In this document: one piece after another, positions 2,819 through 26,658 of the stretch | Position numbering within the stretch: position 1 is the stretch's first letter | How the letters are laid out: every line of letters starts with the position of its first letter | Source: a virus | IMG/VR virus record: IMGVR_UViG_3300025646_000263 | Location: 1-27,513 of that record | Reading direction: 5' to 3' (one strand) | Length of the DNA stretch: 27,513 nt | Notes under the pieces: model-generated | Told to the model about the DNA's origin: nothing | The model's input: the letters and a program-made list of their open reading frames with translations, nothing else | Database searches by the model: none | Made by a program: the position numbers and the translations under genes

Positions 2819-2965
2819 CTAACCTTGGCCTCTATAACGTTTCCAGCTACGCCTTTTGTGCTTGTTTAAAGGTTTACTATTACGACCTTTTCCTTGGCTT
2901 GTACGCTTTCTTTTGTTAGCATTTAAACTAAATTTATTTTTTACTGTTGTTGTTTTTTTAGACAT
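2819..2965 (-). CDS. Small, very basic protein
   Basis: A 48-residue frame starting MSKKTTTVKNKFSLNANKRK and ending in KHKRRSWKRYRGQG. Almost half the residues are Lys, Arg, Asn or Gln, and there are practically no acidic residues. The ATG at 2965 has AAAGGAA at good spacing. It sits immediately downstream of the tmRNA, with no terminator between, so it may share the precursor transcript. Similar small basic KRK/KGR proteins occur in marine myoviruses, to my recollection. Nucleic-acid binding (for example to DNA or to RNA) is a guess from charge alone. Confidence 0.65.
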   Translation of the reverse strand: MSKKTTTVKNKFSLNANKRKRTSQGKGRNSKPLNKHKRRSWKRYRGQG

Positions 2966-2978
2966 ATTTCCTTTTTGT

Positions 2979-3233
2979 GGTAGGGAGTTTCTGTTCCCAG
3001 GTACTCCCTAAACCCGTTCAGCTTATGCTGCTAATGCAACCTGAGCTGGAGAATAATCGCTGTTGTTTGCAATTATAAAGTTGATGGTGGTCATCACCCT
3101 ATTTGCTCTCTCTGTTACTATCATTTACTGTCGAATACCTGAACACCCCCATATATTGAAAAAGTTTTGGTGGAGGTGGCCGGAATCGAACCGGCGTCCA
3201 ATAAACTACCCTTACAGGTCTACAAGCAAACTA
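2979..3233 (-). ncRNA. ssrA: Circularly permuted two-piece tmRNA
   Basis: tmRNA with SmpB rescues stalled ribosomes and adds a degradation tag. Here the order is permuted. Transcription meets the acceptor piece first (about 3232-3168), with a T-arm (3195-3179, 5-bp stem, loop TTCGATT) and a 3' end CACCTCC-ACCA at 3178-3168. A 17-base spacer (3167-3151) follows, then the coding piece from GGGGGTG (3150-3144) to about 2979. The two ends form a 7-bp acceptor stem with G-U at the third pair, the alanine identity element. Long-range pairing also fits: CAGTAAAT with GTTTATTG, and AGCAAA with TTTGCT. The tag frame is at 3070-3023. The coding piece ends in a hairpin, TAGGGAGT/ACTCCCTA (3010-3003 with 2988-2981). 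Mature ends are inferred. Host processing enzymes and SmpB would be needed. Confidence 0.93.
3023..3070 (-). other. tmRNA tag-peptide reading frame
   Basis: Within the coding piece, GCA AAC AAC starts a 15-codon frame encoding ANNSDYSPAQVALAA and ending in TAA. The resume context TATAATT-GCA-AAC resembles that of bacterial tmRNAs, and the hydrophobic ALAA end is the usual signal for ClpXP/ClpAP-type proteases. Confidence 0.92.
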
Positions 3234-3239
3234 TTAATA

Positions 3240-3268
3240 ATTATATTTATTTTTAAATAAAAAGTCAA
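3240..3268 (-). promoter_or_regulatory. Sigma70-type promoter of the tmRNA
   Basis: TTGACT (3268-3263), a 17-base spacer and TATAAT (3245-3240) on the minus strand, a near-consensus housekeeping promoter. Initiation six to seven bases downstream falls at about 3233, exactly where the acceptor piece must begin. An ATAAATA late-type motif (3250-3244) is embedded between spacer and -10, so the site might serve both host and phage late polymerase forms. Confidence 0.8.
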
Positions 3269-3361
3269 GTATTTTTAAAAAAAAGATGTGTTAGATGCAA
3301 CAACTTCTCCTGTTATTACCTTACATATTAATTTCGTAGATTAATAAAATTTTTCAGTGTA

Positions 3362-25599: not shown

Positions 25600-26090
25600 A
25601 ATTGATCTATCTGTATTACATCATTTATTTTTGTTAAATCTTTTGCAAAAAACACACACAAGCTGTCGCTTTTTAAACTAAGCGGTACCGCTAACATATG
25701 TCCAGTTTTTAATTTAGGCAAATACCATTTCTTTTCATTATATACTGTTTTTAAATTAATTGGTAAAAATTCAGGTTTTACATGATCTGGATTAATTGAA
25801 AATGCACTAAAACCTCTGTCAGCTATTTGCATGATACTGATTATTTCACTTTGCCCTAAAAATTGATCAGCAATAATTACACTCCAATCCAGTGGAACTT
25901 CTAGATTATATTCTCCTATTTGCAACAAAGCGCATGGTGCATTAAAGCTTTCTAAAAAAACTAGTGGTGTGTAAATGTAATCTAATTCAGGTTGATTGGT
26001 AAAATCCAAAACCATAAAACGTATATCTTCTTCTATTTCATCAGAAATAAAATTAAGATCCATATTTTTATCTATTGTGTTTATAAGCAT
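25590..26090 (-). CDS. Conserved phage protein of unknown function
   Basis: A 166-residue protein. The central pattern ISIMQIADRGFSAFSINPDH, then EFLPINL, KKWYLPKLKTGHMLAVPLS and CVFFAKDL is one I recall from conserved proteins in T4-like marine phages, without known activity. No catalytic motif stands out. The ATG at 26090 has GAGGT six bases before it. It is first in the chain with the gp62-like, zinc-finger and DnaE-like genes, driven by the TTGATT/TAATAT promoter at 26111-26139, so it is probably an early or middle gene. Confidence 0.68.
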   Translation of the reverse strand: MLINTIDKNMDLNFISDEIEEDIRFMVLDFTNQPELDYIYTPLVFLESFNAPCALLQIGEYNLEVPLDWSVIIADQFLGQSEIISIMQIADRGFSAFSINPDHVKPEFLPINLKTVYNEKKWYLPKLKTGHMLAVPLSLKSDSLCVFFAKDLTKINDVIQIDQLWL

Positions 26091-26110
26091 GATAACCTCA
26101 TTTAACTCTT

Positions 26111-26139
26111 ATATTAGCAAACATATTTACAAAAATCAA
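26111..26139 (-). promoter_or_regulatory. Sigma70-type promoter, minus direction
   Basis: TTGATT (26139-26134), 17 bases, TAATAT (26116-26111) on the minus strand, about 20 bases before the ATG at 26090. It is interleaved with the plus-strand promoter at 26126-26155, so both could not be occupied at once. Confidence 0.55.
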
Positions 26140-26155
26140 CTAAATACTTTATAAG
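26126..26155 (+). promoter_or_regulatory. Sigma70-type promoter, plus direction
   Basis: TTTACA (26126-26131), 18 bases, TATAAG (26150-26155) on the plus strand. Initiation about seven bases on would start the transcript at the beginning of the structured leader. Confidence 0.5.
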
Positions 26156-26160
26156 TTTGT

Positions 26161-26215
26161 GCCGCACAGGGGCGGACTTATGCTGTCCCCACAGCGTAGA
26201 CCTAGAACGTCATTA
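26161..26215 (+). ncRNA. Structured 5' leader / candidate cis-regulatory RNA
   Basis: A GC-rich patch in an AT-rich genome, directly before the ribosome site of the gene at 26227. Hairpin 1: CCGC (26162-26165) with GCGG (26172-26175). Hairpin 2: ATGCTGT (26180-26186) and ACAGCGT (26191-26197) around a CCCC loop. The GGGG at 26169-26172 is complementary to the CCCC loop, giving a possible pseudoknot or kissing pair. It does not match any riboswitch consensus that I know. Confidence 0.5.
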
Positions 26216-26226
26216 AGGAGAAAAAA

Positions 26227-26658
26227 ATGGGAAGACCAATTAACAAAAAATATTTCGGACCTCCTACAGCAGCAGGTAATGAAATCAAAGTAAGATTTTA
26301 TGATGGTAGCACAGCAAAACCTGGTTGGATTATTAAACAATTAGGAACCAAAAAATTTAGAGTAACTGATGGTGTTACTATTAAAGATTGTAAACTAGTA
26401 ACAGAAGATGCAGCTCAAATTAATGCAGAAGGCGAAATGTCTATTACAGTAAAAAATGATGCTGGTAATGCAGTTCAGGTAGCTAAAATTACTGCTCATT
26501 TAATTGTGGACGAAAATGGACAAACAATTCCTTGGGGATTTGCTGACTTTAATGCTGTTAGTGGACAAGTAGAAATGGAAGAAGCTGGAGATGATACCAC
26601 AATGACTTCAGCTACTACAGATGAAGACGATTTTGAATCTGCAGATCCTGCACCTTAA
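26227..26658 (+). CDS. Conserved, probably structural protein
   Basis: A 143-residue plus-strand protein. It begins GRPINKKYFGPPTAAGNEI, an opening I recall from virion-type proteins of marine T4-like phages, and then a beta-rich middle (ITVKNDAGNAVQVAKITAHL). The last 35 residues are low-complexity and acidic (Glu/Asp/Thr). The ATG at 26227 has a perfect AAGGAG six bases upstream, preceded by a structured leader and its own promoter. Its end overlaps the convergent uvsW by four bases. The strong, separate control suggests high expression; the location in the particle is not known. Confidence 0.68.
   Translation: MGRPINKKYFGPPTAAGNEIKVRFYDGSTAKPGWIIKQLGTKKFRVTDGVTIKDCKLVTEDAAQINAEGEMSITVKNDAGNAVQVAKITAHLIVDENGQTIPWGFADFNAVSGQVEMEEAGDDTTMTSATTDEDDFESADPAP

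Follow-up and report, generated by a model that had tools for sequence, protein, structure and literature searches.

A freshwater-2 RNA leader with a probable start-codon pseudoknot before a head-region gene of T4-type phages

The leader and the gene behind it

The window (the entire stretch of viral DNA analysed, 27,513 nucleotides long) carries on its plus strand a gene for a 143-aa protein that begins MGRPINKKYFG... (26227..26658). A divergent gene starts at position 26090, and the interval between it and the ATG at 26227 contains a late promoter element followed by a structured leader. The element is a T4-type TAAATA at 26141..26146 (+ strand, within CTAAATAC), and the same element is conserved in relatives. 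If the spacing of T4 late promoters is taken as a guide, transcription presumably starts at about 26152-26154. The leader, which is also on the plus strand, begins with the 5'-terminal hairpin P1 (approximately 26153..26178 according to the fold), in which CCGC and GCGG pair at 26162-26165 and 26172-26175. P1 is followed by P2 (26179..26198), whose strands UAUGCUG (26179-26185) and CAGCGUA (26192-26198) enclose the loop UCCCCA (26186-26191) and whose third pair is a U.G wobble, and by P3 (26199..26211), a hairpin of the form GAC-CUAGAAC-GUC with a conserved loop ending in AGAAC. The Shine-Dalgarno sequence AAGGAG occupies 26215..26220 on the plus strand, and the start codon AUG begins at 26227.

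The first-pass annotation had described a GC-rich fold of two hairpins between promoter and AAGGAG, and this placement agrees with the positions of TAAATA and of the Shine-Dalgarno sequence. Both of its stems, CCGC/GCGG and ATGCTGT/ACAGCGT with a C-rich loop, were found where it had put them; P3, the best covarying hairpin, had been overlooked. The interval given for it, 26091-26226, is too wide in that 26091-26140 are 5' of TAAATA. The base composition is as unusual as had been noted: the leader patch has 57% G+C versus 32% for the window, and 133 of 27,457 windows of equal size are as rich. The folding energy is only modestly better than that of shuffled sequences (z about -2, with 6 of 200 shuffles equally good), so that energy alone is unconvincing and the convincing evidence is that of homology. 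The earlier observation can be regarded as partly confirmed, and its interpretation as partly supported. A small upstream ORF beginning at an AUG in P2 was also considered, and it was rejected because loop lengths vary and neither its frame nor its stops are conserved.

No Pfam or PHROG family was matched by the 143-aa protein. Its structure model (pLDDT 82) is predicted to be mostly beta, and a fold search with it gave no PDB match at E <= 0.001; a resemblance to Tudor/SH3-like folds was discarded, with a Z of at most 5.2 that is below the meaningful level. At E <= 0.001, 12 viral models match that of the 143-aa protein, all of which are unnamed or uncharacterised. Elsewhere in the window, on the - strand at 2932-3272, there is a tmRNA gene (tag ANNSDYSPAQVALAA) among phage genes; it is of the permuted, two-piece kind of alphaproteobacteria, which is a hint of the host group.

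Relatives of the leader and the freshwater-2 family

A protein search of viral contigs identified relatives of the 143-aa protein in 42 loci, a selection that is free of DNA-pattern bias. Among the 28 unique leaders that were found by protein alone (L001-L041), 27 have TTATG..CGTA..A(A/G)AAC before the Shine-Dalgarno sequence, the exception being L034. A DNA pattern yielded at least 120 stretches, and patterns with an ATGGC start yielded 61 and 35 stretches; in the loci derived from patterns, the conservation of TTATGC, GCGTA and AGAAC is given by construction. No search pattern placed any constraint on the P2-loop sequence. A parsing filter that required a real P2, a Shine-Dalgarno sequence and an ATG resulted in 176 different leaders, from which L053 (ATGGTA) was removed as a spurious parse. 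The remaining 175 leaders start with ATGGG in 128 cases and with ATGGC in 47, and the 98 stretches obtained with ATGH or ATGGW as the start contributed no further structured leader.

The leaders are followed by one kind of gene, with 171 of the 175 downstream proteins falling into one single-linkage homology cluster and nearly all beginning with MGRP or MAR. In 104 of 172 loci, a gp23-like major head protein gene, which matches PHROG 138 in L056, L063, L101, L147 and L258, has its end no more than 1.5 kb upstream in the same orientation; for the loci that have at least 1.5 kb of upstream flank, the count is 97 of 145. The neighbours in the window differ: upstream is a PHROG 11279 gene, downstream a helicase, and each of them lies on the opposite strand. 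TAAATA is located within 70 nt 5' of P2 in 166 of the 170 leaders with enough flank, compared to 8.9% expected after Markov shuffling. Judged by the neighbourhood in relatives and by the promoter, the downstream product is a putative head protein. The first reading had taken the gene for a probably abundant virion gene, and a virion neighbourhood is what the loci of relatives show. In cultured phages, tblastn of the 143-aa protein found two distant relatives, in Sinorhizobium phage Phosso and Pseudomonas phage MIJ3. Both have the MGRP start with TAAATA close before it and both are without a freshwater-2 leader, which shows that MGRP does not need the RNA.

Scanning against Rfam, which had been suggested as a check, identified the leader as a member of the freshwater-2 family (RF02980), a family that is itself already known. 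The match covers the full length of the model (1-84) at 26158..26229 on the plus strand with 49.9 bits (cmscan, E 7.1e-7), which is exactly the gathering score. With the score exactly on the cut-off, RF02980 was not listed in the Rfam scan of the whole window; a regional cmscan and a genome search did report the match. The window leader has the P2 and P3 of the family with the conserved UUAUGC..GCGUA and UAGAAC before the Shine-Dalgarno sequence, and the match ends at the predicted AUG of the 143-aa gene, in line with the Cis-reg class of RF02980.

Among the relatives scanned against RF02980, 12 of 20 scored above the cut-off (best 74.8 bits). In the search of virus records, 25 of 26 matched at E <= 0.01 and 20 of 26 reached the cut-off, with scores of up to 75.7 bits; 21 of the 26 contain one copy, four contain two and one contains none. 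The 14 well-known control genomes gave no freshwater-2 match. A scan of a bacterial and archaeal genome collection with a strict pattern returned two stretches, one of which is not the motif; the second is a typical leader with an MGRP gene in a Rickettsiales metagenome bin, on a contig that is most likely phage-derived. When four leaders were compared by blastn with 50,697 cultured-phage records, a search of low sensitivity for an 80-nt RNA, no leader was found, and a single 32-base partial match was given no weight. A search of one literature collection found no paper for the freshwater-2 RNA motif or RF02980, and the accessible main text of cyanophage papers on cis-regulatory RNAs is without mention of freshwater-2.

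Some loci contain further RNA elements or a second leader. In L014, a manA RNA (RF01745, 85.7 bits; 2145-2351) lies 68 nt 5' of the freshwater-2 leader on the same strand, and in L007 (1918-1965) and L008 (1928-1975) a glutamine riboswitch aptamer (RF01739) is found about 450 nt 5' of it. Tandem leaders occur in L059 (at 1454 and 3173) and L153 (at 483 and 1665), and every one of them is followed by an MGRP-type (or MGNA) gene of its own, so leader and gene can be duplicated as a unit.

Covariation and the partner of the P2 loop

A covariation analysis of the related leaders was carried out on an alignment of 146 of the 175 (unique sequences whose P2 loop measures 5-9 nt). Every one of the four P3 pairs varies on both sides, and P2 shows compensatory changes at pair 6 (GC/AU/UA) and pair 5 (CG/GC). 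Over P2 and P3, 93.9% of the cells are paired; shuffles reach 77.3% and slid partners 40.3% at most. The covariation score is 0.389, compared to 0.094 for the shuffles and no more than 0.044 for the slid partners. The highest mutual information within the element is found in the P2 and P3 pairs. These comparative data confirm P2 and P3 by abundant compensatory changes. In 174 of the 175 parsed leaders the P3 loop ends in AGAAC, which to a large extent reflects how the search patterns were built.

P1 is more variable: its sequence and length differ among relatives, and it is short or doubtful in some. Beside P2, a P1 stem of at least four pairs is present in 157 of 170 leaders, the other 13 having three pairs or fewer. 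Four leaders with little or no P1 (L054, L082, L086 and L119) carry TCTAG near the 5' end, which is complementary to CUAGA in the P3 loop and represents a possible second long-range contact. In up to 61 of the 175 leaders, e.g. L093 and L045, a segment between P3 and the Shine-Dalgarno sequence is partly complementary to AGGAG. It reads GGACTTCT or GGACTCCT in 31 of the 175, GGACTACT in 22 and GGGCTTCT in 8, and in this subset it could form an extra anti-Shine-Dalgarno hairpin.

In the window, the 3' end of the P2 loop, CCCA (26188..26191, + strand), is complementary to UGGG (26228..26231, + strand), which comprises the start codon from its second base and the first two bases of codon 2. This loop covaries with codon 2 in the relatives. 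CCC loops occur in 98 of the 128 ATGGG leaders and in 7 of the 47 ATGGC leaders, while GCC, AGC or TGC loops are found in 5 and 29 of them, respectively. At the position just 5' of the last CC, the 128 leaders with a G-start have C in 97 cases and G in none, and the 47 with a C-start have G in 17 cases and C in 7. The 132 unique leader combinations give the same picture. When the loops were re-dealt among the leaders, the mean number of complementary bases was 85 of 157 and the maximum in 5000 trials was 100, compared to 114 observed. The mean energy of the duplex between loop and start is -4.71, as against -3.86 (sd 0.12) after re-dealing, where 0 of 1000 trials were as good. Sliding the target along the transcript identified the AUG region as the unique best partner of the loop, and conversely the best partners of the second base of codon 2 outside the coding sequence are the P2-loop positions -5 and -4.

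A tree of 167 downstream proteins was used to follow the changes at codon 2, whose second base underwent 15 or more changes. Seven independent pairs had support; among them, CCC was lost with the C-start in 5.5 (the opposite in 0.1) and a complementary triplet was gained in 3.7 (the opposite in 0.4); with so few pairs, the phylogenetic sign tests are borderline (median p 0.0625 for CCC and 0.25 for complementary triplets). The geometry is that of a classical H-type pseudoknot, with the 7 bp of P2, a short L1 and 0-1 nt between strand 1 and the 3' strand of P2. The helix is just 3-4 bp long in most leaders. A helix of at least three pairs between loop and start is absent in 5 of the 175 leaders, and the expected triplet is missing in 18 of the 47 with a C-start. 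In a fixed register, 80.7% of the cells of the pseudoknot helix are paired in the 146 leaders, with the diagnostic pairs 14-77 and 16-75 broken in 37 and 55 leaders, in part by register shifts of one nucleotide. On this comparative evidence, we consider it very probable that the P2 loop forms an H-type pseudoknot by pairing its 3' segment (CCCA or GCCA/AGC/UGC) with the start codon and codon 2 (UGGG/UGGC). As in operators of the rpsO/alpha type, the start region is inside the pseudoknot helix, judged solely by covariation; in operators of that type, the pseudoknot is stabilised by a repressor protein, which traps the 30S subunit.

Possible functions and known leader pseudoknots

The loop pairs with the start codon of the very gene that it precedes, which suggests that the leader is an inherent brake on the synthesis of this protein. 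In the closed pseudoknot, the Shine-Dalgarno sequence would lie in the long connecting loop and should still be bindable, and the AUG would be prevented from pairing with the initiator tRNA, so that initiation would be held back. By analogy with E. coli rpsO and the alpha operon, this could happen by occlusion or by ribosome entrapment. Opening or stabilising the pseudoknot would then set the output of the late head-region protein, and the 5'-terminal P1 probably has a protective role for the mRNA. It appears reasonably probable that the freshwater-2 leader constitutes the 5' UTR of a late mRNA of the T4 type and serves as translational operator of the head-region gene. A trans factor would be likely to recognise the conserved wobble of P2 and the AGAAC loop in P3. 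The encoded protein itself would be the first candidate for such a factor (autogenous control), being the simplest one since this one gene family follows the RNA. A tentative model, which we put forward as possible, is that freshwater-2 is a phage-specific autogenous operator: the head-region protein of aquatic T4-like phages would bind its own late leader at the wobble stem and the AGAAC loop, lock the start codon in the pseudoknot and so match its synthesis to capsid assembly, with the leader having kept pace with the coding sequence as codon 2 repeatedly switched between Gly and Ala.

The first-pass annotation had suggested a different tertiary structure, in which GGGG in hairpin 1 and CCCC in hairpin 2 would form a loop-loop contact. 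The letters are present in the window, but GGG is found in the P1 loop of just 4 of the 101 leaders with a CCC loop in P2, and the loop covaries with codon 2 instead. The GGGG:CCCC match is therefore a local accident and a contact of this kind hardly conceivable; the compact leader does contain a conserved pseudoknot, as had been proposed, with the start codon and codon 2 as the partner of the C-loop. Another mechanism would be control by transcript length as for T4 genes such as e (PMC3014915, as far as accessible), in which the start is hidden in long read-through RNAs and free in late RNAs that begin inside the structure. Read-through RNAs are possible, as most relatives have a same-strand gene upstream, in many cases the one for the major head protein. 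However, the distance from the end of TAAATA to P2 (TTATG) is at least 12 nt in all 166 leaders that have the element. With T4 spacing, late RNA would therefore start 5' of P2 and should keep the whole pseudoknot, which makes this explanation very improbable.

The compact size, the conserved loops and a pseudoknot at the start codon would also suit a small riboswitch, with P2 and P3 as the aptamer for a metabolite and the start-codon pseudoknot as expression platform, and in two relatives (L007 and L008) a glutamine riboswitch is indeed nearby. We nevertheless regard a riboswitch as unlikely, as the leaders go with one gene family in a head-region neighbourhood and nearly always with the late promoter element, no association with metabolic genes was seen, and no result points to a small-molecule ligand. 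Doubtful, though less unlikely than a riboswitch, is a constitutive leader without a switch, where P1 shields the 5' end, P2 and P3 space the ribosome-binding site and a weak pairing of loop and AUG tunes basal translation. This would fit a pseudoknot that is short and missing in some members, the position of P1 at the very 5' end and the fact that no trans factor has been identified. But 27 of the 28 protein-selected leaders strongly conserve the wobble stem and the unpaired AGAAC, and the loop coevolves with codon 2; both go beyond the needs of a spacer.

The window leader shares with RF02980 the sequence, the P1/P2/P3 structure and the place directly before AAGGAG and AUG. The structure line in Rfam is without the start-codon pairing; added here are the late promoter, the single head-region gene family and the start-codon pseudoknot. 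An orphan Rfam motif can now be assigned to a phage lineage, a class of promoter and a gene family and is given a tertiary contact, which makes its function testable, and a leader RNA is seen to coevolve with the first codons of the protein that it would control.

If the translational operator proposed above is real, freshwater-2 would be a second kind of leader pseudoknot in T4-type phages. According to the accessible part of PMC3014915, the T4 gene 32 pseudoknot is possibly the only viral one used in translational autoregulation. It is likewise a pseudoknot in a T4-type phage mRNA leader that controls translation, a role which for freshwater-2 is a proposal derived from sequence. At 67 nt upstream of the start, the gene 32 pseudoknot serves as the nucleation site for gp32 binding (PMC3014915, same part). 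Its start codon is outside the structure and its gene is not of the head region; freshwater-2 differs on both counts and, unlike gene 32, would hold the start codon of a structural-region gene. In the T4 genes e, soc and 49, the Shine-Dalgarno sequence or start is also hidden in RNA structure, but by sequestering helices, and the inhibited form of gene e is a longer early transcript (PMC3014915, same part); the freshwater-2 structure is a pseudoknot and would be retained in the late transcript. The operators of E. coli rpsO (S15) and of the alpha operon (S4) resemble the freshwater-2 leader in that a pseudoknot is located where translation of the gene under control begins. There the 30S subunit binds and no active complex is formed (entrapment), as described in the accessible part of PMC10931766. 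According to the same part, rpsO requires a U-G/C-G motif, whereas in the freshwater-2 leader a U.G is followed by G-C. Both operators belong to host ribosomal protein genes and have a different sequence from freshwater-2, and the likeness drawn here is one of proposed mechanism, with no relation claimed.
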